Below, piece by piece: positions 1,937-42,016 of a stretch of DNA of 64,000 bases. Location of the stretch: the NCBI RefSeq assembly GCF_041146795.1, contig NC_135180.1, forward strand, positions 36,564,294 to 36,628,293, written 5' to 3'. Position numbers and translations under genes: made by a program. The number at the start of each line of letters is the position of its first letter. Within the stretch, counting starts at the first letter, position 1. This DNA is from Maylandia zebra (taxonomy: Eukaryota; Chordata; Actinopteri; Cichliformes; Cichlidae). Under the pieces are notes generated by a model. The model did no database searches. It worked only from the letters and a program-made list of their open reading frames with translations, and was not told where the DNA came from.

Positions 1937-4900
1937 TCAGTTGGCGTGCTGAACAGTGGAGAAGCACAGTTTGAGGGTGTACGGGTAGGGACCGGCTACA
2001 GAGAGAGGAGAGAGTCAGCGTTAGCTCAACCCAAAGAAACAAAAACAAACCATATACAAAATTCCTGCAATGAGCCAAATGAACTGAATGTGTGCTTTAA
2101 CAAGTGTGTAGGTGAAGCACGGTCAGCTCCTTAGAGTTAACTAACTCTTAACCTGACAACTGCTTACTGTGTATAATTTAAAAAAGGATACTTGAGAGCA
2201 TCATTGAAAACTTACTTGGATTTTTCATTTGGTAGTGGTTTATCATGGCCAGAGCTTCCATAGCATCGTTGATCGACTCCCACTCTAACAGACCTGAAGC
2301 ACTGCGATCACTGGGAGCTGCTCCGCCTGGTGGGCACAGATGCAGAAATGTGATGAGACGTTAGATTTTATTCAGATTCAGTCATCGTTTTAAATATTTA
2401 TCGGTGCATCTGCCAGTCTTCTTAAAGCTCACTGGCATAACTCAAATACACGTCAAGAGGAGGCGGGTGTAAAGCAGCGTACTTTTTCCTGTGAACATTT
2501 TGACATTAACAGGAGCCTTGACACCGATCTCGTCACAAATCTGTAAGAAGACAAACATCGTTAGGGTCTGCAGGTGCAACACTTGTGATAGTCACAGTTT
2601 GAATCCTTGGGCTGCATGTGCACAGTTCCTCCTACAGACCTGAGAGAAGATCTCCGGCGTGGCTTCTGGCTGAGCGTTGAAGAAGTGCAGCACGTTGCTC
2701 GGGTGCTGGATGCGGTTTTTAGCTGCTTGTTCTGGGGAGGTGAACCGGTTGTTCCTGGAGCCATGGAATTCCTTGAAGCTGCTTGTGCCATCTTCCAGCT
2801 CGTAGCATTGACCAGGAACGATGGCTTGCTGCTTGGATACGCTGCAGGGAATAGGAGGGGGGAGGGGGATCAGCCTTTTAAAATCATTTATGGCTCTTAC
2901 TATTTAAGTCTCCAAAACTCAGCAGCTTCAGAAGCTCAGGCATAAACCAGTGGGTGATGTGTCCATGTTTTGTGATGACATTTCCACAGCCTTTACTTTG
3001 GACTAAAACAGTGTGTCAGCCTTTGTGTGATTCAAGTCTTTAAAGTGAAACTAACATCAGCCACTCTGCTGCCCGTAGACTTCTTGTTTGTGATTGGTCA
3101 GATGTTTTCAACTCCAACTGCTATCCAGATGATCGATTAGAGAATCCGGGGCAAACGGCTATCAGTTAACACTGGGGCGAGTGAAACTGTTGTGCGTGAC
3201 TAGAAGCTGCTTTGTTCGGGCTCAGATGGTCCTGGAGCGATTTCATCAGTCTGACACTTGTAGATTAAACTGTTCAAGTTTAACTCACCACACATTCAGT
3301 TTCTGTCCAAACAGGAAGTTGTTGTTGAGGTGAGTGATTGCACGGTCCACAGCGTAGCAGTCTCCCATCTCCACCATGGCTGCTCCGGGCTTACTCTTCA
3401 TGAACTTCACCTGGAAGGGTTCAAAGACAGGATTGACTGGTGCTCTGCTATTTGCCTTTCGCTTTGACCTAAACACAGAATCAATTTGCTCTCTTGACTT
3501 GTGTGCGTGCTGATGAACTGGAACACAAGTGTGGCATTGTTGAGGTGGAAAATATTGACTCCGTTTCAGCCATGATAACACTTCCTGCTTACATTCCTTT
3601 GTTTCACTCTCAGTGTGAAATTTTGCTTGCTGGTAACTTCATCCTGCTCGCTGAGCTTTTATATCCAAACAGGAGTTAGAAAAACAAATGTGAGACACCT
3701 CCTGGGTCATTGTTAAATGTTCATGTCAGTGCATTTACTTCTGAAGGAATATACATTAACTGCATAAAAAGATTGAGACCGTTATGCAAGTTTAAGTAGC
3801 AAATCTGGACACAGCACCTGTACCAGTTACCATTTAAAATCATGAGCCTGTGCTGGTCCGACGCAGGATTTACATTTTCCTGTGTTCATTATTTTAAATG
3901 TTTGCATTAACTTAATGTTCACCTAAGTAATCTCACTTCAGGTTTTACTGTTCAAAGGTGCCATATTAGGTTTAAGTCATAATATAGAGTTACAGGGTTT
4001 TGTAAGTTCATATTAATTACTACAGCACACATGAAGACCCACAGGCACGACATCCCAGGGACTTAGACACGCACCAAAATCATCTTTTATTAGACCTGTG
4101 TTCTTTCTAATGGTCAGCAGAGGTCTGACTGCTGAAGACTTCTGGTCCTAAACCATAGGTGTCAAACTCTGGCCCGCGGGCCAAATTTGGCCCGCAGCGT
4201 AATTACATTTGGCCCACGAAGCCATACCAAATTACTATCAGAGCTGGCCTACTGGTATTATACAGCTAATATATATATTGTTTAGTATTAAGCTTTGCTT
4301 GTTCCATATTCAGTTTTTCAGCAAAACGTGTTTGAGTCCATAAGAAAAGATTCATTCAATAAATATTAACGTTAGCCCGTGACTTTGTTCCAGTTTTGAA
4401 ATTTGGCCAACTGTGTATTTGAGTTTGACACCCCTGTCCTAAACAATAAGAAAACATCCATCAGCTCCGAACTCTGACATCATCCACCGATGTCGTTAAA
4501 ATAAAGACCATAGCCTGATATAAAAGACTGATGTCTTTTATAAAAGACCCACCTTCATCTTAGCTCTTTCAAACCAGGACAGTTCTGACCAACTGTGGGA
4601 GCGTGAACATACCCATGATTATCAATACAGTACTTAGAACTCATGATTTAACCCACAGTATAAACAGGAAAGTGTTTACTGAGCTCAAGGGAGATGAAGG
4701 ATGTTTTCACATACACCAAACACAATCAATGATTGATGATTTACAATGCAGCAGCTCAACCATCAGCTTCGCAGCTAAAAAACAGGCACTGACCCGCTCT
4801 ACGTTCCCATAGAGACAGAAGATGTTGAAGACGCGGTCGGCATTCATCTTGACAGGGTCCAACCCGTACACCATGACAACCGGCGAATCAGCATGTGCGC

Positions 4901-31053: not shown

Positions 31054-31412
31054 AAACTACAATAAGATTTTTTTTCCATATCAGCAAGTCCTCTGTGAAA
31101 TACAGTGATTCCTCACAACACTGAATTTTTGTGGTTTCATTCCCATTGAAAACAGTCACAGATGTACCAGGTCACACAGTTCTCACAGTTCTATGTTAGC
31201 CCAAGCATTTTTCTGTTGTGTGTCTAGTAAAGCTGCACACTTAAGTTGGCAAACTTAAAGCTTCTTCTTATGGTAATTTTCATTCAACACGTTGGCGTGA
31301 TAACATCCGCTCATGTGGTTCGGCACATGAGCCACATGAAGCTCAAGTTGAAATCCTGAGACTTAATGAATACCATAAACCTGACTGCCTGGGTATGTAT
31401 TTTTCTCTGTTT

Positions 31413-31428
31413 TCTTTGAACATGTGAT
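31413..31428 (-). terminator. U1 3' box (copy 1)
   Basis: Just downstream of the split U1 copy, GTTCAAAGAAAACAGA matches the snRNA 3'-box consensus GTTTNNNRNARNNAGA at 15 of 16 positions. It lies about 7 nt after the RNA 3' end, in the usual place for Integrator-directed processing; edges are approximate by a few bases. Confidence 0.75.
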
Positions 31429-31554
31429 CAGGGGAGAGCGCGAACGCAGTCCCCCACTACCAGAAATTATGCAGTCGAGATTCCCACATTTGGGGAATTC
31501 GCAGGGGTCAGCACAACCGGAGTGCAATGGCTGAGCCTCGCCCTGGGTGAACCA
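31429..31554 (-). pseudogene. U1 snRNA gene copy 1, 3' part (disrupted by LINE)
   Basis: This segment encodes U1 nucleotides 39-164, including the second and third stem-loops, the Sm-site region AATTTCTGG and the terminal stem ending CGCTCTCCCCTG. The 5' part is 5.4 kb away at 36996-37042. The segment starts with the 9-bp target duplication TGGTTCACC (plus strand GGTGAACCA at 31546-31554). Its 3' flank keeps a 3' box. It is not functional as it stands. Confidence 0.93.
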
Positions 31555-31919
31555 ATTCAATTCAATTTTCAATTTTCAAAGGATTTTATTGTTCAGAAAA
31601 AAAATTACATCAATTCACTTTATAAATAAACCATCAAGATACAAAGGGGCCCAAATGGGGAAACCCACAAAGTGAAAAACAGAACAAAGGGGGAAAAAAA
31701 TACTTTCACATTAGTTCTACATACAGATACTCAAATATTTTCTTGGCACTTTCCATATCTTTCTCTTGTTCTCTTCATTTTCTCCAAATAGATTTCTTAT
31801 AATATAATCTTTTAACAGACAAACCATAAAATTGATCACAACTCTTTCGGGTATTTCATATCTTTTAAACACACAAATATTTCTCGCCCTCCATAATGCA
31901 TCTTTGACACAGTTCACTA

Positions 31920-34900
31920 TTATCCACCAACACTTTCCCCCCTCCCCCAACTCACTTTCAGAAACCCATACATTATGCTTTTGTATGTCAACTCTTCTTT
32001 ACACAAATCATTCAACCAATGACCTAATAAACTCCATACATTTTTAGTGAAGGGGCATTCCCAAAACAAATGTCTAACCGTCTCATCTTCCCCACACCAC
32101 CTTCTTGGACACTGCGCACTCCTCGTGCACTCCCCTTTTTCCAAAAACGCTCTTGTAGGTAAACATTCCTGAACAGCTTGCCATGCTAAATCCTTATGGG
32201 AATTTAACAGTAACTTGTTATTAACATTGCCCCAAGCTATTTTGCTATGGATTTCACAGAGTTTCCCTATCAGAGACATACTGACTGTCGGGAATAATAT
32301 CTCCTCTAAGTTGGCACGAGTTATCTCCCAAGGTGTAATCTGAGTCGAGAACTGTTTCAACGATTGAATCACCACATCATAAACTGCGGGGTATTGTTCA
32401 GAGAAGGGCACACTAAGGGGGAGGCGCACACCCCATGCCTGCAACACTCTCCAACCCACCCAAAACCTTGTAAAATATGGCCAAATCTTATCTTTAGGGT
32501 CACTGAAGCATGCCTTAAGCACTGGAGCGATAAACATCGCATTAAGCTTAGACGCAATTTCTGGGACTGCTCTCCCCCCTTTTTCTACCGGTCTGTACAT
32601 AGTTTCTCTCTTCAATCTCTCATGTTGGCCTCCCCAAAGGAAATGAAACATAGCCTTCCTCAGTGAGGTTAATATTTTGTACGGGATTGGTAGTGTAGTT
32701 GCCAGGAACGCTATAGACGCAATTACTTCAGCCTTTAACACCAAAACCATACCTATAAAGGAAAGCTCCCTGTCTTTCCAATTCAACAGCTTCCCTTGTA
32801 TTTTCTGTAGTTTTGAATTCCAATTCTTAGTTTGCATATTTTCTCCTATTTCCACCCCTAAAATTTTCAGCGTTTCAAATTTTTCTTTCAATCCCCAATT
32901 CTCCTTAATCTCCCGCCACTTAAAATGAATCACCTCACTCTTACCCTTATTGATTCTCATCCCTGAAGCTGCCGTAAAGGCTTCACAAACTGCCAGGTTT
33001 ACATCTATTGACTTGTTATCCGTAAGCAATAAAGTCATGTCATCCATGTACATAGAAAATTTAACTTCCAACCCCCCACTACCTGGTGGGGTCAGCCCTT
33101 TAATTGACTCATTTAATCTTAATGCGCATGCCAGTGGCTCCATCACCAATATAAACAAAATAGGGGACAAGGGACATCCCTGCCTTACTCCAGATTTCAC
33201 TGGGACCGTAGCGGTCTGTGCCCCATTCACAACCACAACACTACTACAACCAGTATATAACACCCGGATCCATCTCCTAAAACCTTCCCCAAATCCTAAA
33301 CTATCAAGAACTTTCATCAGAAAGACGTGACTGACGTTGTCAAAGGCCTTTTCTAAATCCAGGCCTAACACACAAAGGGGGATATTCCACTCTAGGCTAT
33401 AAAGGTAACTGTCCCTTATAACCGCTAAACTATCTGTCATCCTACGCCCTTGTATCCCGCATGTTTGTTCCACTCCAATTAACTTAGGCACTACTGCCTG
33501 CAACCGGAAAAAAAAAAAAAAAGGGCTTTAGCTAAAATCTTGATGTCTACACCTAACAATGTCAGGGGTCTCCAATTTCTTAAATCTTTTTTAGAGCCCT
33601 TTTTCCACAACAAGGAAATCACCCCTGTATTCATGGACACCGACCATACGCCTTTATCCCACACTTCTTTATAGACAGAGCACAACGAAGGACTGAGTTG
33701 TTCCCAAAAGGCCTGATAATATTCCTTAGGAAAGCCATCCAAACCTGGCGTCTTGTTATCTTGCATACTTATCATAGCTCTTGTGATTTCATCTAGCATT
33801 ATATCTTCATCTAACACTGTTCTGTCATCTGAATCTAATCTTTGTGTTAACTTGGAGATAAAGGATTCCACAATCACTTCATCAATACTTTGCTCTTTGT
33901 ACAAATTGGCGTAAAAGGAGTGTGTTGCCTCTAGAATTTCTTGGGTGCTTTCCACTTCTTTCCCTCCCCCATTAATCAGGCAGTCCATAACGGGTTTAGA
34001 TTTGTACAATTTCCTAAAAAAATATCTTGTGCAATTTTCATTTTCTTCCATATGTTTAACCCTACTCCTTATTAATACTCCTTTGCTTTTCTCATTTAAC
34101 ACTACCATCATTTCCTTTTTCAGGTTCATAATCTCCTCACTTACATCAAAACCTAGATTAAGGAGGTTGTAATACCTTTGTAATTTTCCCTGCTTTCTTA
34201 ATAGCCATTGTCTACTCGTCTTTGCCCGCTTTGTTCCTTCTAAACTGAAAAATACTGGAGTCCTAGTCTTTATACTCTCCCACCACTCACCTACCGAATC
34301 GTATAGCGGTTGTAAAGAGGCCCATTGTTGCAATTTGAGTTTATATCTTCCCACCACTTTCCCTTCCATTAATAAATTCAGGTTTAATTTCCATGGCCCC
34401 GGACACGGTTGAAAGGGAGTTTGAATGCTAAATCTACACGTTACCTTATGGTGATCGGAAAAGGGTACTGGTTCCACCTTACATGACAGAGGCGTTACGC
34501 CTTTGCTGGCAAACAAAAAATCCGTGAAGCGGTCTTCTTATTGGACCAGGTGTGTCCTGGGTCTGTAGGGTTAAGAGATCTAAACACATCTTTCAGATTA
34601 CCATCATTGATCAAATTTTCTAATGCACAAGTACTTGAGTCTTTCTTAACTGTTGAACTCGCCCCCTGGCTTGCACTCGTTTCCGGTGTACAGTTAAAAT
34701 CCCCGCCCATTACTATCTGTCGTCTATTACAAAGAAAGGGTTGTAATGTTTGAAATAATGCAGTCCGTTCTTTCATATCTGTATGTCCATAAACATTAAT
34801 AATCCTAAATTTACTCCCGTTTTTCTCTACGTCAATAAGTAAAGCTCTCCCATCCACCACAACTTCCACATTTTCTATGTTGATGGTTTTATTATTAAAC

Positions 34901-35140
34901 AAAAACCCCACACCAGACATTCGATTTTGGTTATCCCCTGACCAAAAGGATTGTCCATATGTCCATCGTTTTGCGAACTTCGCGTAATTGTCCATAAAGG
35001 GTAGGGCACATTCTTGGAGAAGACAAATGTCCCCACCCGTTTCATGTAATACACTAAAAACAGATTGGCATTTCACTGCATCATTCAACCCTCTTGTATT
35101 AATCGTAGATCCGTGAAATGTATTTATGTTGGTTCTAAAG
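31920..35140 (-). pseudogene. LINE ORF2: APE endonuclease, reverse transcriptase, C-terminal zinc motif
   Basis: The N-terminal part (35140-34495) shows endonuclease signatures TINTRGLNDAVK, DICLLQEC, INVYGHTD and MGGDFNCTPE. The middle (34516-33491) leads into NWRPLTLLGVDIKILAKAL. The third part (33503-31920) has RT motif A LDLEKAFDNVSH, motif B SGVRQGCPLSPILF and motif C YMDDMTLL. It also carries CPRRWCGEDETVRHLFWEC, a C-terminal knuckle common in L1/Tx1 elements. There are frame changes near 34505 and at a 15-T run near 33509-33523 (minus strand), the latter possibly slippage or an assembly error. Endonuclease nicking of U1 DNA would prime reverse transcription. Confidence 0.88.
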
Positions 35141-35194
35141 GGGGGTGGTCATTGTACTCTGAAAAACTTTATTATTGAGAGTTCTACTATAGCT

Positions 35195-36985
35195 TTACCT
35201 TCTTTTTCTTCTTCCGTGGAAACCACACCGAAGTCGGTGCTCTCTCATCGTTGCTTTCCTCCTGTTTTCCTGAGCAGCTCCCTGGGTAGGTGTCGGGACT
35301 TGTTCTTCAAGCGGGGGTATTGGCGAGGGGTCTGTATAGCCCTGAATTTCCAAATCAAGGTTTCCAGTAGAAGACTCTGTTGAGGTATTTATCTGTCGTT
35401 TATGTGAGGTCGGCGCTGCACAAAGGCCTACTTGTAGCGACAATTCAGAGGGGGTAGTTGTGTTATCTTCGATGTCACAAGGAGGTAACGAAAAACCTCC
35501 CTCTTCTAGGGTGATAATGTGTTTGGACTGAACCGTTGAAAGATCAGGGAACATGAGATCAAGCAGGTCTCTGCACTCTTTGGATGTTGACGGCCGCGTA
35601 AGAATTTGGGTGCCTTAGAGAGATGCCATTCCCTCCTGAATCTTGGTTTCCATTTCTAATTGAGATACATGCACGTCAGGATTAGTCGTAGGCACTCTTT
35701 GCGTCTTTAATAGTTGTTCATTCCCGTCCGTTAACCCTGTGGTCTTCCCTGTCACCACTGTCGTTGAATCCTCGTGTGTAGTTACTTGAGAGGGCTGGTC
35801 ATCTACTCATTCCCCACCCCAGCTGTAGGTCGTTTGGCCCTCAACCACTTCCTGCTGGAGCTCGTTGGCTTGGTCGTTACTTACATCTTCATCAACTTGC
35901 GGACCTCCTCCAGTTAGCATTGGTATCTCCTCTAATTGCTGCAGCTGTGGTCTTTTCACCCTGTTTGCATAGGATTGGGGACATGCCCTAAAGGTATGTC
36001 CTTCTCCCCTGCAAAGGTTACATTTCCTTGGGAAGGGGCATTCCCTTGCAATGTGCTCGTCACTGTTACAGTTTTTACAAACCACACTGTCGCACTCTGC
36101 GGCTAGATGGTCGTTGCTGCCACATTTACGACATGTCTTGGGTTGCCTGGGGTAGAAAACATATCCTCTGATTGCCCCTAATTGGGGGAGGTGAGTTCTC
36201 ATCTCTATGCAGGTGAACATAGAAACGATATGCTCCGGTTCGGATACCATCTTCGTCTTTTAAGTCCAAACCTCTCGTCACCGCACATTTAAAGGACAAC
36301 CAGGTCTTAATATCTTCCACTCTCACATATTCCGAATGCATGATCACTGTCACAGCTTTGGGTTCTCTGCCTGATAACGGTGTCATCTTAATATTCTCCA
36401 GCTGAGGTCTTGATTGTTTAAGTCTATTAAACTTGTCAATACATGATTCAAAGAACGTATTGGTGGCAAACATCACCTCATAACTTTTCTTTCAAGGCAA
36501 GCCGAAAATGTAGTTGATCTCCGTTGGAGAAAATCCCAATTCCTTCTGGATGACAATCCTGCTGAACTGCATCTATTATTTAGATGCTGCATTTATTATT
36601 ACTCCATAATAAAGACTTTAACTGATCAAGCACACACATCCATACATATGCAATAATACTAAGTGCAATAATCCTTTCTGTCATCGTTGTATTTTTACTC
36701 AGTTGTATATAGTATTTGTATTCTATTTTTATCTTATTGTATATTTATTTTATTTTATTCTACTGTATATAGTATTTTATTTTATTCTATTCTGTACAGT
36801 TGTGTACTGTATTTATTCTTATTGTATTCTAATTTTTGCCTCATAACTTTTGCACTGTCCACTTCCTGCTGTGACAAAACAAATTTCCCACGTGTGGGAC
36901 TAATAAAGGTTATCTTATCTTATCTTATCTCAAAACGCACAGCATTCCTCCTGGAACCTGTCATATTAGCAGTCGATGTCGCCAT
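35195..36985 (-). pseudogene. LINE ORF1: RNA-binding protein with three CCHC knuckles
   Basis: The start is CCACCATGG at 36985 (MATSTANMTGSRRNAV). It is interrupted after about 18 codons by a LINE tail, then resumes with RIVIQKELGFSPTEINYIFG, one in-frame TGA, and VMFATNTFFESCIDKFN. The knuckles are CRKCGSNDHLAAEC, CKNCNSDEHIAREC and CNLCRGEGHTFRAC. A frame change lies near 36200. The probable C-terminus is basic (HGRRKRR) near 35195. In L1 and Tx1 relatives this protein packages the element's RNA. Exact ORF1 length is inferred. Confidence 0.8.
36570..36931 (+). mobile_element. 3' end of a second LINE nested in ORF1 (L2/Rex1-like tail)
   Basis: AT-rich sequence ending with ACAAATTTCCCACGTGTGGG, ACTAATAAAGG and repeated TTATC units, the usual 3' end of L2/Rex1-type fish LINEs. 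It interrupts ORF1 between codons RF and FSR, so it landed after the U1-inserted LINE. The left edge is approximate. Confidence 0.75.
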
Positions 36986-36995
36986 GGTGGGTCTC

Positions 36996-37042
36996 GGTGA
37001 ACCACCGTCGTGATCATGGTATCTCCCCTGCCAGGTAAGTAT
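36996..37042 (-). pseudogene. U1 snRNA gene copy 1, 5' part
   Basis: U1 nucleotides 1-47: ATACTTACCTGGCAGGGGAG at the 5' end, then GATCACGACGGTGGTTCACC. It keeps the 5'-splice-site recognition sequence. The 9-bp duplication lies at 36996-37004. Together with 31429-31545 it makes exactly 164 nt. Its upstream 75 bp runs straight into the 3' flank of copy 2 and has no PSE at the expected position, so it may have been promoterless. Confidence 0.9.
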
Positions 37043-37100
37043 ACTGTAAGTAAGCTTTCAGAGACTTGATAAACACCATCTGTTTTTGTTTCTTCTATTT

Positions 37101-37116
37101 CCTTTGAACATGTGAT
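37101..37116 (-). terminator. U1 3' box (copy 2)
   Basis: GTTCAAAGGAAATAGA follows the U1 3' end ATCACAT and matches GTTTNNNRNARNNAGA at 15 of 16 positions. It directs 3' processing of snRNA transcripts. Edges are approximate by a few bases. Confidence 0.8.
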
Positions 37117-37280
37117 CAGGGGAGAGCGCGAACGCAGTCCCCCACTACCAGAAATTATGCAGTCGAGATTCCCACATTTGGGGAATTCGCAGGGGTCAGC
37201 ACAACCGGAGTGCAATGGCTGAGCCTCGCCCTGGGTGAACCACCTTCTTGATCATGGTATCTCCCCTGCCAGGTAAGTAT
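37117..37280 (-). ncRNA. U1 snRNA gene, copy 2 (intact, 164 nt)
   Basis: U1 snRNP RNA that pairs with 5' splice sites. The 5' end ATACTTACCTG, the first stem-loop, CATTGCACTCCGG in stem-loop II and Sm site AATTTCTGG are all present, with 3' end TCTCCCCTG. The length equals human U1. A PSE sits 47 nt upstream, a ZNF143-like site about 190-205 nt upstream and a 3' box downstream, so it looks functional. It differs from copy 3 at one or two positions. Confidence 0.97.
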
Positions 37281-37327
37281 GAGTTGTTCACCTCACACAT
37301 GGGGGACTCTTTCACACACAAACCCTG

Positions 37328-37339
37328 CACACTCACGGT
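37328..37339 (-). promoter_or_regulatory. Proximal sequence element (PSE) of U1 copy 2
   Basis: ACCGTGAGTGTG occupies -48 to -59 relative to U1 +1. The same spacing and a near-identical 12-mer precede U1 copy 3 and U2. The PSE is bound by SNAPc. Confidence 0.85.
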
Positions 37340-37468
37340 GCTCACAATCTCACAATCAACACAAACACAGCCTGCAGGAGGCTGGGACTACACACTATTT
37401 ATATACACAGGAAGGAGCTTCCAACAGAGCCACATCAGGTTATTGAGTTTAAACTATACGGGGAGTCT

Positions 37469-37485
37469 TTCCCATCATGCATTGC
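37469..37485. promoter_or_regulatory. ZNF143/Staf-like distal element of U1 copy 2
   Basis: TTCCCATCATGCATTGC closely matches the ZNF143 (Staf) site TTCCCANNATGCNNTGC, about 189-205 nt upstream of U1 +1. This is the normal position of the distal sequence element of vertebrate snRNA genes. Confidence 0.85.
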
Positions 37486-38525
37486 TGCATCTGCACAACA
37501 AAAGCTAACTGAAAGATCACTTTTTTCATCCATTTAACCTCCTTAAATCCACCAACAAACCAACAGGAAGTTCAAGTAACTCCAAGTTGAATCAAACTGC
37601 AGCTGAAAACTGTTTGATTCACGTCTGATGTTTAGAAAAAAGGAAAAAACGCATAAAGCGCACACGTTTTCTGCTAACAGCACAACCACTTCCTGTTCCT
37701 TTGTTATGTGCTGCTGAACAGTTCACTCTCCTCCTGCTGCTGCCCCCTACTGTCCCGGAGCAGGAACAACACTGTTTATTGCACACACATATTCTAAGAG
37801 CTTCCTTGTGTGTAAACGACAGCAAAGAAGGAATAAGATGAGTTTCTGTCATGATCAGACTGAACATCCACTCTATGATCACATTACACTACCTGCAAAG
37901 CTCATTTCAGCCTTGTAGAAACATCTGCACAGATTAGAGGATGGTGGCATGTAAGGCTACCAGTGGCATGAAGTCGTATATGAGGGACAAGCCCACAAAG
38001 TGTGAATACAAACGGTTTGTTCGAGCTGATTGGGCACCGGCTCACACGTGACAGTTTTTTGTGTACACAGGAAAGAGTGAGGTCAACATAAGTTATGGTC
38101 TGAGCTGCTCGTCTGTCATAGATCTTTAAACCATTTTCTTTGCTCGGTGGTGGCTACACTTTGGCTAACTGTTCTACCAGCCCTGCCCTCTTCCACAATC
38201 TGCATAACACACATGCTGGCTGCTGTGGAACCATTAGAGGAAAGAAAAGGGAAAAAACAGGCTGTCTTTCTGCACATGGACAAAAATGACTTTCCTAACA
38301 CGACTGAGAGGGACGAGCTGCCCTGGATTAGAAAAGAAGCTGCTGTTTGTTAAGTGGATGAACACTCGGGAGGTGACAGTGTGCTCCACAGTGCACAAAG
38401 GACTTCAGTGAAAAGACTGTGCAGCACAAAGCTTTCACTAACATCTTCCTCAAATAACACAACAACGGAGATTTCTGAGCCTTAATAAACGCAGAACACT
38501 GCCGCAGTATCTGCTTCCTCTGTTT

Positions 38526-38541
38526 TCTTTGAACATGTGAT
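38526..38541 (-). terminator. U1 3' box (copy 3)
   Basis: GTTCAAAGAAAACAGA, 15 of 16 to the 3'-box consensus, directly after the RNA 3' end. Edges are approximate by a few bases. Confidence 0.8.
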
Positions 38542-38705
38542 CAGGGGAGAGCGCGAACGCAGTCCCCCACTACCAGAAACTATGCAGTCGAGATTCCCAC
38601 ATTTGGGGAATTCGCAGGGGTCAGCACAACCGGAGTGCAATGGCTGAGCCTCGCCCTGGGTGAACCACCTTCTTGATCATGGTATCTCCCCTGCCAGGTA
38701 AGTAT
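38542..38705 (-). ncRNA. U1 snRNA gene, copy 3 (intact, 164 nt)
   Basis: Full-length U1, same layout as copy 2. One visible change turns ATTATGCAG to ACTATGCAG on the plus strand near 38580. About 470 bp upstream of it is nearly identical to the same stretch upstream of copy 2, so the two units are a recent tandem duplication or are kept alike by gene conversion. PSE, distal element and 3' box are all present. Confidence 0.97.
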
Positions 38706-38752
38706 GAGTTGTTCGCCTCACACATGGGGGACTCTTTCACACACAAACCCTG

Positions 38753-38764
38753 CACACTCACGGT
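38753..38764 (-). promoter_or_regulatory. PSE of U1 copy 3
   Basis: ACCGTGAGTGTG at -48 to -59, identical to copy 2. Confidence 0.85.
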
Positions 38765-38890
38765 GCTCACAATCTCACAATCAACACAAACACAGCCTGC
38801 AGGAGGCTGGGACTACACACTATTTATATACACAGGAAGGAGCTTCCAACAGAGCCACATCAGGTTGAGTTTAAAATATACGGGGAGTCT

Positions 38891-38907
38891 TTCCCATCAT
38901 GCATTGC
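38891..38907. promoter_or_regulatory. ZNF143/Staf-like distal element of U1 copy 3
   Basis: TTCCCATCATGCATTGC about 186-202 nt upstream of U1 +1. It is identical to the copy 2 site. A 3-bp indel between the copies accounts for the shifted spacing. Confidence 0.85.
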
Positions 38908-39318
38908 TGCATCTGCACAACAAAAGCTAACTGAAAGATCACCTTTTTTCATCCATTTAACCTCCTTAAATCCACCAACAAACCAACAGGAAGTTCAAGT
39001 AACTCCAAGTTGAATCAAACTGCAGCTGAAAACTGTTTGATTCACGTCTGATGTTTAGAAAAAAGGAAAAAACGCATAAAGCGCACACGTTTTCTGCTAA
39101 CAGCACAACCACTTCCTGTTCCTTTGCTCTCTGCTGCTGAACAGTTCACTCTGCTCCTGCTGCTGCCCCCTACTGTCCCGGAGTAGGAACACTCACTTTA
39201 ATGATTTCAAACTACATTCTGCAGCTTCAGACTCCTCTCAATATTTGACTCTCATTGTTTGACTCAATAGGTCAAACGAAAGTATTTGAACCTGTCACTG
39301 CTTTTATTGGAGATTCAT

Positions 39319-39910
39319 TCACATCTGTCTGCATTCAATTTCTAATTGCTCTTGGCTGACGCTCGCTCTTGCCATCTGATTACTCAATGCGATTCCATTT
39401 TTAAAAGTCTGCAGCCAGTCACATACTTTGGGCATTTCCTCTCTGGTTGTAAGTTTGCCGTACCCTGAATGTTCACCTTGACCAGTGATAACAGTGAGAA
39501 AGACAAGATCGACTGACCTATCAGAAAACACAGATTAAGGACGAGTCCACCGCATGAGCTCCCTGCAGCTCACAGGGACCAAGAACAAATGCTGCAGCTG
39601 GAGTTGAGTTTAGGCCCTTCTGCACATAACAAAGCCTGGACTGCCATGACTGCAGAAGTATGCTTCTCCTTCTTAGAGAGGACATCCCAGCCAGTGGAAG
39701 AGAAGTATGTGGTACACCTGAACTAACAAATATAAATGTCATGCTTGGTGAAATACACGACAGCTGCAGAGAAAAACAAATGGCACCAAATGGTCAAGAT
39801 GAGATGCTGCTATCAGCCAGATATCTGGAACTACATCGGACATTCTGCAGAGCAGCATTCCTGTCCACTTTTGCAGTGACAGGAAACAAGACGATGAGGG
39901 GGTGATAGCT
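39319..39910. other. Unrecognised possible coding fragments
   Basis: On the minus strand 39319-39531 could encode about 70 residues (VDLVFLTVITGQGEHSGYGK then EEMPKVCDWLQTFKNG), preceded by an acceptor-like TTTTCTGATAG. On the plus strand 39660-39905 has a short open frame containing TNINVMLGEIHDSCREKQM. I recognise neither. They may be remnants of a transposon or old gene, or chance. Confidence 0.25.
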
Positions 39911-40079
39911 GGATCAATATTTCCTACTATTCTCCCTCGTCTCACAGGCGACCCTCAGTAACTGTCCAGATCCAAAATCAAATACAAAACCTATTACAGA
40001 AGAGCCGAAGCCTTTTCTTACTTTAAATGTTACTTCAATGCATGCATTTTGCAAGAATTACACTTCTTACAGCGAAATA

Positions 40080-40365
40080 GGGCTGCAGCGATTCATCAAG
40101 TATTTTGAAAAATTGGATTATAAACAATCCTCAACACAGTCTTTGCTTCGCTGCTTCATTTAATGCCCAGCTCTGTAGCCTGCCGATGTGTTCAAGGATG
40201 TAAACGCGTGCATTTCACATGCATTTGCGACTAAAAGCAGACCTGCGATACAAAGGGATTTAGGAGCAGCGTGTGAATAAAAAGTCTGACAATATTAAGC
40301 AAACACAGGGCCCAGTTTTGAAAAGAAGCACTGACATCACCACAGCAACAGTGACGTTACGTTGG
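40080..40365 (+). repeat. Fragment of a TAGGGCTGCAGC-ended repeat (forward copy)
   Basis: Starts TAGGGCTGCAGCGATTCATC. It matches the reverse copy at 30690-31053 through the GGGCCCAGTTTT block. Likely a decayed hAT-like MITE; the right end is uncertain. Confidence 0.6.
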
Positions 40366-41264
40366 ACACTAAATTATTATTAATATTAATTAATGTCTAC
40401 ACCATCATAACATCTTGTTTGCAGCAGCATAAAAACTTTGCATCAAAGGCAAACTTCAGACTGCTGATATACTCGCATCGCTGCATTGCAGGCACCACAT
40501 TCTCCTTTAAAGGCTTACAGACAGAAATTCACTGCACACTTAAACAAGCAGACGCATGAACAAAAATCACAAAGCCTTCCACGAAGACAGTAAAGATTCA
40601 TTTTTTATATCTTATTTTAGATTGCATATTTATCTTACTTTATTTGGCTTTGACTTTACTTGAGCGCATTTATATATTTTGGCAGCTAAGAAAATATTTT
40701 CTTTAAAAAATTACAATTTCAGATGTCACGTAAATACAAAAGGTTTGGGGGTCTTTTTAGAAAAATGAAACAGATGATGGGTAAAAAAAAAAAAAACATC
40801 AACAGATCAATCTATTACCAAAATAACCCAATAGATGCAGCTGATATAGTCATAGTCAGATTACCAAGGAATGAGCCAACTTTAAGAGAAAAGCGCTTTG
40901 AATAATAAACATATACATAAAGACCAAACCCACAGCCCACAGAGAGCTGCTGGGTGACACAGCCACTTATTTCATGAACAACAGAACAGTTTTCATAGCA
41001 AGAGATTGTTATACGTCACTGGACACAGGCAGACACGTACTAGGGTCTAACATTTTCTCTCTCAGGCACATTCAGTGAAACACATAAAGACGACCCAGGT
41101 TCTACTTGAGAAAATAATAGATGGTTAAGAAGCAGACTGGACTACTGTAAATAAGACATTTAGTCTCACTGGAACTAGCTGTATAAATGAAGGTTAAATA
41201 AATTAAAAATATTTACTGCAAGCAAAATAAAAATATTATCCACCAGCACTGCACCTTTTTCTTC

Positions 41265-41345
41265 TCTAATCAGAATACTTTAATAATCCTTAAGGAAATT
41301 GTGTGGGTTACAGTTGCTCCAGGAGGATAACAGTAACAGACTGAA
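41265..41345 (-). mobile_element. Short L2-type LINE tail
   Basis: On the minus strand ACAATTTCCTTAAGGATTAT followed by TAAAG resembles the 3' end of fish L2-like LINEs. Only the tail remains. Around it (40370-41820) there is no recognised gene. Confidence 0.45.
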
Positions 41346-41826
41346 CTAATTAAATAATATAATATATTACAAAGCCTACAAAATATGAGAAATAGCTCTA
41401 AATCACAAGCTGCTTTCTGTTTCTACTGAAATAAATGTGCCAATATATAGAAAAGGATATTGGAAAATGATCAATAGAAGACTTAAAGACAATAAATGTA
41501 GATGTGGTTTTGTTTCACACTGTAGATGGATAAATAAACAATTTTCCACGAACTGCAGACAATTTGTTTCCTTGCCAGCTTTAGTCAGGCATTGGAAAAT
41601 CTCATTAAATACATTTTTTTAAAATCTACCAAGATACAATTTTTTTGTGTGCTGCTTTGTCTGCAGCAACTATGTGTTTGCATCATTGTTGTGTTGCAAC
41701 TTAATATAATAATTTGGAATCTAACATTCCAAATTGGTAATCAGCAACAAGAAACCATAAGGGGTGTCAGTTATTCTGGTGCTGTGAACACCTGGCCAAG
41801 CGTTCAATATTTTTCCACATGTTTAA

Positions 41827-42016
41827 GGGGGTGCACCGTTCCTGGAGATACTGCAATACCAGGTCGATGCGTGGAGTGGACGGAGCAAGCCCCTAGTCCA
41901 TCTCCCTGTTCCAAAAATCAATTTAATATATGGTCCCCGGGTAGGGGACGTATCAGATATTAAACTGATAAGAACAGATACTACACTTGATCTTAGCCAA
42001 AAGGCCGAGAAGCGAT
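41827..42016 (-). ncRNA. U2 snRNA gene, full length (190 nt)
   Basis: U2 snRNP RNA that pairs with the branch site. The 5' end is ATCGCTTCTCGGCCTTTTGG. The branch-recognition segment GTGTAGTATCTGTTC is present, stem-loop IIa is intact, and stem IIb is CCCCTACCCGGGG. The Sm-type site is GATTTTTGG, followed by GGTATTGCAGTATCTCCAGG and the 3' end GGTGCACCCCC. No truncation or tail suggests a retrocopy, and a PSE lies 47 nt upstream, so it is probably functional. A 3' box is not clear. It lies about 3.1 kb from U1 copy 3, on the same strand. Confidence 0.96.

Follow-up and report, generated by a model that had tools for sequence, protein, structure and literature searches.

Long interspersed elements (LINEs) with an apurinic/apyrimidinic (AP)-type endonuclease nick their target strand, and the nick primes reverse transcription. 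R2 is specific for the 28S ribosomal RNA (rRNA) gene and has a restriction-like endonuclease, a single open reading frame (ORF) and a 5' ribozyme. Keno is a U2-specific member of the Tx1 clade with an AP-type endonuclease. In the crocodilian elements SINEU and Tx1-Mar, Tx1-type machinery equips the copies with additional 5' sequence that derives from U1 or U2. U1 small nuclear RNA (snRNA) is essential for splicing. In 2015, only Keno and Utopia (both at U2), Dada-U1 and Dada-U6 were reported as transposons that target snRNA genes, and the Utopia site was placed at U2 nucleotide (nt) 39, with an identical 3' flank in Keno (PMC4640811). Here we describe a stretch of 64,000 nt from the genome of the cichlid Maylandia zebra (G000:C14:36564294-36628293, hereafter the window), in which a ~5.4-kb LINE interrupts a U1 gene on the minus strand. 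This LINE is very likely one copy of a family of non-long terminal repeat (non-LTR) retrotransposons that inserts specifically into U1 snRNA genes.

A U1-specific LINE is not reported in the titles and abstract openings of the open literature searched, which leaves Repbase and most subscription papers outside. A LINE that lives in U1 genes would be a new case of an snRNA target for non-LTR retrotransposons. Sister elements that target U1 and U2 in one genome, both at nt 39, would make it possible to test directly how the choice of target shifts. Furthermore, site-specific AP-endonuclease LINEs are of interest as insertion tools, and a new natural target would be useful.

U1 nt 39 as an insertion site

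The split U1 gene, the LINE and the adjoining U1 genes of the window are arranged as follows.

31429..31554, minus strand: 3' part of the split U1 gene, nt 39-164 (Rfam RF00003, 100.6 bits), identical over these nt to the U1 gene at 37117
31543-31554, minus strand: 3' copy of the duplication, U1 nt 39-50, CTGGGTGAACCA
31555..36992, minus strand: LINE with both ends present and a nested insertion inside; its 3' end is a short TTGAA-like repeat
36993-37004, minus strand: 5' copy of the duplication, U1 nt 39-50 with one mismatch, CTCGGTGAACCA
36993..37042, minus strand: 5' part of the split U1 gene, nt 1-50, whose first base is exactly U1 nt 1 (37042); no promoter
37043..37116, minus strand: 74 nt assigned by flank alignment to the 3' flank of the intact U1 gene at 37117
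37117..37280, minus strand: intact U1 gene with an empty site (Rfam 169.4 bits)
38542..38705, minus strand: intact U1 gene with an empty site (Rfam 166.5 bits)

Rejoining of the flanks with one copy of the duplication restores 164 nt, as the first-pass annotation of this DNA had stated. Two substitutions in the 5' piece, at nt 33 and 36, are all that separate the restored gene from the intact U1 gene at 37117-37280, and their clustering there is weak (p ~0.05 for nt 1-38 and 0.08 for nt 1-47, if substitutions are uniform). The flank at 31402-31428, on the 3' side of the U1 3' part, resembles the flank of the neighbouring U1 genes. The same annotation had placed a LINE ending at 36995 inside the U1 gene, flanked by a 9-bp duplication. 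The two U1 halves, the LINE and the duplication are indeed in place, but the LINE ends at 36992, because in two relatives on contig C18 (C18:4030322 and 4047837) the LINE 3' end is followed by TGGTTCACCCAG (U1 nt 39-50) and then directly by ACCCACCATGG. For the duplication itself, 12 bp (U1 nt 39-50, a single mismatch) is a better reading than 9 bp. The insertion had also been called clean. This does not hold on the 5' side, because the promoterless U1 piece follows 74 nt of 3' flank of the intact U1 gene at 37117, and a U1 promoter is absent ahead of it. The motif GGTGAACCA occurs four times in the window, always within U1, against an expectation of 0.67, and none of 100 shuffles reaches four. 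The window also holds a U2 gene at 41826-42016, 4.8 kb from the split U1 gene, so that U1 and U2 genes are near neighbours within 31429-42016.

The genome searches covered 962 Mb in 63 contigs, all from the window's own genome. A DNA search with the LINE 3' end gave seven matches, namely the window and six pieces at C18:4.026-4.095 Mb, and all seven are located within the two U1 clusters, on C14 and C18, or immediately next to them. This search is not exhaustive, since it missed a known 3' end at C14:36436822. Consistently, all five matches to ORF1 (the window and four at C18:4.029-4.058 Mb) lie in or beside U1 clusters. Neither search lists a family member in ordinary sequence, and a predominance of copies at unrelated sites, which the first-pass annotation had named as the outcome that would undo its proposal, was therefore not seen. 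At the C18 locus, U1 is repeated in tandem as units of ~1 kb, and LINE copies flank the array at its two edges. Across the genome 42 U1 matches were scored, of which 38 reach at least 147 bits. Empty sites are present in number: 31 of the 38 motif matches in the fetched C18 stretch lie within intact-like U1 sequence, and the window adds its two intact U1 genes. Two U1 copies, at C18:4073019-4073140 and 4078288-4078409, match nt 1-122 only, their last 42 nt being replaced or diverged.

Homology identified seven LINE 3' ends, the window included, and five of them, on two contigs, join U1 at nt 39. The junction in the split gene therefore recurs elsewhere in the genome, as expected for the U1-specific lineage that had been proposed from this single insertion. 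The copies joined at nt 39 share the same sense as U1. The 3' ends at window position 31554 and at C18:4093920 continue into U1 nt 39-164, those at C18:4030322 and 4047837 run through U1 nt 39-50 into the 5' end of the next LINE, head to tail, and the one at C18:4052826 passes into other sequence after just 7 nt of U1 (TGGTTCA). Two more nt-39 3' ends, at C18:4022858 (U1 nt 39-57) and 4025093 (U1 nt 39-48), were found through the U1 motif and are excluded from the proportion above. Over 600 bases, the 3' ends of the five U1-joined copies show 65-94% pairwise identity and fall into four groups, which are 65-87% alike between one another; the 3' end at C18:4022858 is 42-45% like these five. The copy at C18:4093920 is 5'-shortened and carries a 19-bp duplication (U1 nt 39-57, C18:4093920/4095299), unlike the window copy with its 12 bp. 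As judged from the sequences, U1 nt 39 has been struck in separate events, more than once, because there are four sequence groups with differing truncations and duplications. In addition, a comparison at E 1e-3 matched neither of two stretches flanking the window's U1 genes to the fetched C18 block. These unmatched flanks and the divergence of the 3' ends do not fit a single segmental duplication, the other outcome of which the first-pass annotation had warned. Several independent copies at the same nucleotide, few copies elsewhere among those listed and empty sites are thus all found, as is required of a site-specific element.

Coding regions and relatives at U2 genes

The body of the LINE contains the following features.

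31920..33527, minus strand: ORF2, reverse transcriptase (RT) and C-terminal zinc motif (RVT_1 1.3e-26, zf-RVT 2e-8)
33494..34537, minus strand: middle part of ORF2 in another frame; no Pfam domain above cut-off
34498..35148, minus strand: ORF2, AP-type endonuclease (Exo_endo_phos 6.5e-6)
35198..36491, minus strand: pieces of ORF1 with stops and a frameshift (ZCCHC3-type RNA-binding domain 1.3e-12, CCHC zinc knuckles 1.7e-11)
~36593..36935, plus strand (opposite to the LINE): unrelated transposable element nested in ORF1, with a (TATCT)n tail; borders drawn by eye
36983..36985, minus strand: ORF1 start codon in CCACCATGG context, 7 nt from the LINE 5' end; same layout at C18:4030322 and 4047837

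Among solved structures, the best match of the RT is L1 ORF2p, and the best matches of the endonuclease are L1-type endonucleases. A Tx1-type domain set is present by Pfam: an AP-type endonuclease, an RT with a C-terminal zinc motif, and CCHC knuckles in ORF1. This domain make-up, together with the Keno-like site, suggests that the window LINE belongs to the Tx1 clade. The RT tree described below contains elements of this one genome only. RT relatives were absent from the viral contigs and from the bacterial and archaeal genome contigs searched.

A protein search with the RT gave at least 85 matches. The group nearest to the window LINE, with 66-86% identity, comprises the C18 copies, a copy at C14:36.435 Mb and a fragment at C14:9.46-9.71 Mb. 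The C14:36.435 Mb copy is rearranged; it starts with U1 nt 1-53 and contains further U1 pieces. The next group, with 32-40% identity, is found on C14 and C15 and includes many members with long open frames. When 14 loci of this group were submitted to Rfam, 7 showed U2. Of the 20 loci L033-L052, 19 (all except L035) carry TCTGTTCTTATC (U2 nt 39-50) after an A-rich end. The AP-type endonuclease is also recognised in this group (L037, Exo_endo_phos 1.1e-12). The kinship with the U2-targeting Keno that had been put forward for the window LINE thus gains support from U2-inserted relatives in the same genome. These Keno-like LINEs form large nests at U2 at C14:9.45-9.71, C14:36.44-36.49 and C15:12.29-12.71 Mb (L033-L052), with many frames of more than 1,100 amino acids. 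In L033, L034, L045, L046 and L051, U2 nt 39-56 is followed, by eye, by sequence like antisense U2 nt 20-34 (CACTTGAT..CTTAG). A U5 gene adjoins a U2 fragment at C14:9.638 Mb (L055).

In the RT tree of 22 rows, the U1 group forms a clade with 100/100 support, as does each of two U2 groups, and the three groups together exclude a more distant set of LINEs, group X, with 100/100. Within the three, a union of the U1 group with one U2 group is tentative (81/76, with a long-branch warning). The best trees keep the two U2 groups apart, and a single U2 clade is not clearly rejected (approximately unbiased test, p 0.064, or 0.085 with six short rows dropped). As far as these RT sequences and target sites indicate, the window family is a U1-specific sister lineage of the Keno-like elements. 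Because the elements nearest to it in this genome are Keno-like and sit at U2 nt 39, the targeting of U1 and that of U2 appear to be of common ancestry.

Group X LINEs (27-30% RT identity to the window LINE) often lie in or beside histone genes, as in L058, L060, L067, L068 and L070 (C3 and C17) and in L063, L066 and L069 (C3). Fifteen of their 3' ends were viewed, 14 from the 26 LINE-containing matches plus that of L058; the query held H2A, which favours H2A-joined copies. Three of the 15 lie in H2A coding sequence at the same place, two in H4 at two places, and three just before the H3 3' end in antisense orientation, while no histone was seen at seven. The H4 in L058 was identified by translation and the other histones by eye. 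A strict specificity for H2A was rejected, since 3' ends are also found at H4, by H3 and in DNA without histone genes. Group X is possibly a lineage that prefers histone genes, for which no report was found in the titles and abstract openings searched.

The 5' junctions and alternative explanations

Copies with a complete 5' end begin shortly before the start codon. The distance between the 5' end and the first in-frame ATG is 7 nt in the window, at C18:4030322 and at C18:4047837, and 3 nt at C18:4025093; such a short leader therefore has no room for a promoter ahead of the ATG. A junction with U1 at nt 50 is common to three copies whose 5' end is complete and of the ACCCACCATGG type, namely the window copy (with one mismatch), C18:4030322 and C18:4047837; the two C18 copies are not full length. 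Other 5' junctions are at nt 57 in the shortened C18:4095299, the only clear shortened copy joined there, at nt 53 in the rearranged C14:36435559 and at nt 41 in the shortened C18:4057636. At C18:4022858, the U1 stretch after the LINE 3' end also stops at nt 57 and is followed by a reversed LINE piece. Two promoterless U1 pieces begin exactly at nt 1, that of the window (37042) and that at C18:4057636. The latter consists of U1 nt 1-41 (C18:4057596-4057636), lies ~30 nt past an intact U1 gene and is fused to the shortened LINE with a TGG overlap. Two other U1 5' pieces, C18:4095299 and C14:36435507, keep a promoter-like flank.

By analogy with the general non-LTR scheme, the AP-type endonuclease would nick the antisense strand of U1 between nt 38 and 39, and the LINE RNA would be reverse-transcribed from the freed 3' end. 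A cut in the sense strand ~12-19 nt further on would produce a duplication of U1 nt 39-50 or 39-57. The 5' leader of the element itself is minimal. Because copies with a complete 5' end begin a few nt before the start codon, the U1 promoter may drive the LINE and yield a U1(1-50)-LINE RNA, a step that we propose with moderate confidence. Such an RNA would explain why the junction lies at nt 50 in the three copies with complete 5' ends and at nt 57, 53 and 41 in shortened or rearranged ones. It would also explain why the promoterless U1 piece of the window starts exactly at nt 1.

Several observations weigh against a U1-specific family of this kind. The genome searches score the best candidates only, so that the counts are lower bounds, and many of the C18 copies form one nest, so that not every junction is independent. 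A long U1 stretch follows the 3' end in only two copies. The remaining two of the seven 3' ends, at C14:36436822 and C18:4038358, join LINE-internal sequence at ~3590-3610, in U1-linked blocks. No U1 junction was found for the fragment at C14:9.46-9.71 Mb (LINE 2002-4194, four duplicates, both ends missing), of which one duplicate is seen near U2 and U5 sequence. On the 5' side, the boundary at C18:4052772 is ambiguous (leader of 2-23 nt), and the diverged copy at C18:4025093 joins U1 at nt 48 and not at nt 50. Furthermore, an ATG at nt 26, within U1 nt 1-50, is by eye out of frame with ORF1 and would be of no help to translation. The frames of the window LINE are disrupted by stops, frameshifts and the nested transposable element, because of which this copy is very probably dead. 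Separately, in two blocks (C14:36437006 and C18:4038364) a LINE 3' end or U1 nt 39 has as its partner the LINE-internal position ~3610 (CCTTTGTGGGTTAAGC), which is perhaps a secondary target or a recurrent point of rearrangement.

The confinement of clear copies to two U1 clusters, the nesting of several C18 copies in one block and the 94% likeness of two C18 3' ends could be explained by a non-specific LINE that landed once in U1 and gave rise to the other U1-linked copies by duplication. However, the two flanking stretches of the C14 cluster are unmatched in the C18 block, and 3' ends joined at the same nucleotide are as low as 65-68% alike, with varying truncation and duplication length. 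Members in ordinary sequence are missing from both DNA searches, and the chance of striking one U1 nucleotide is ~4e-8 per insertion (42 U1 matches in 962 Mb). A single landing is thus hardly credible. The U2 gene close to the split U1 gene raises another explanation, in which a U2-specific Keno element strayed into U1: the two genes are adjacent and share some sequence (GATCA upstream of both sites), sister elements sit at U2, and both sites are at nt 39. Against this, the clade of U1 copies has only ~35% identity to the U2 elements, which argues for a separate lineage. The U1 site is also unremarkable in its similarity to the U2 site, with anchored ranks of 26/140, 7/134, 8/128 and 8/124 same-strand positions for k=12, 15, 18 and 20 (not significant) and worse ranks without anchoring. 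We therefore regard a stray Keno element as highly improbable.

The origin of the promoterless U1 nt 1-50 is a more delicate matter. Even with a U1-specific element, this piece could have arisen by a jump of the RT onto mature U1 snRNA or by recombination at the edge of the array. RT jumps onto snRNA are known for the heads of SINEU and for U6/L1 chimaeras. A jump explains C18:4057636 as well as the U1-promoter transcript does, or better, and suits the scatter of the junctions at nt 48, 53 and 57. However, random jumps would not give the nt-50 junction common to three copies, the two U1 pieces with a promoter-like flank speak against such an origin, and two breaks exactly at nt 1 are unlikely under recombination. 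A jump or recombination is a serious possibility, though not the origin that we expect. In a further reading, the targeting cue would lie partly in the snRNA promoter or transcription complex, that is, in a position downstream of the start and not just in local sequence, and the element would live wholly off the U1 promoter as a U1-headed RNA. This reading is tentative and rather doubtful. It is consistent with the separation of the U2 groups in the best trees, where a single U2 clade is not rejected, with the lack of marked likeness between the local sequences of the U1 and U2 sites, and with the position of the unrelated Utopia, also at U2 nt 39 (PMC4640811).

Comparison with known systems

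The closest likeness is to Keno. Keno-like relatives in this genome share with the window family the ORF2 set of AP-type endonuclease, RT and zf-RVT and the 3' junction at snRNA nt 39; they are its closest RT relatives in the genome, and a short 5' leader and head-to-tail copies are seen in them by eye (L048, L053). The window family differs in its target, U1 and not U2, and in forming a separate clade with ~35% RT identity to these elements. Its 3' tail is TTGAA-like, whereas the U2 elements here are mostly A-rich, a comparison made with the Keno-like elements of this genome. R2 is likewise site-specific in a multicopy RNA gene, and reliance on the transcription of the host gene is the model proposed here for the U1 LINE. 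However, R2 has a restriction-like endonuclease, a single ORF and a 5' ribozyme, and no ribozyme family reaches the Rfam threshold in the window. In SINEU and Tx1-Mar, U1 is the head of a short interspersed element and not the insertion site.

Utopia also targets an snRNA gene with a 3' flank that starts at nt 39, and intact snRNA genes lie directly upstream of its copies in Phytophthora, but it has a restriction-like endonuclease and its target is U2 and not U1 (PMC4640811). Dada-U1 of zebrafish likewise inserts into U1 genes. However, it is a DNA transposon with a DDE transposase, and it uses another U1 site, GCGAAT/GCGAAC, with a 6-7 bp duplication (PMC3706591).

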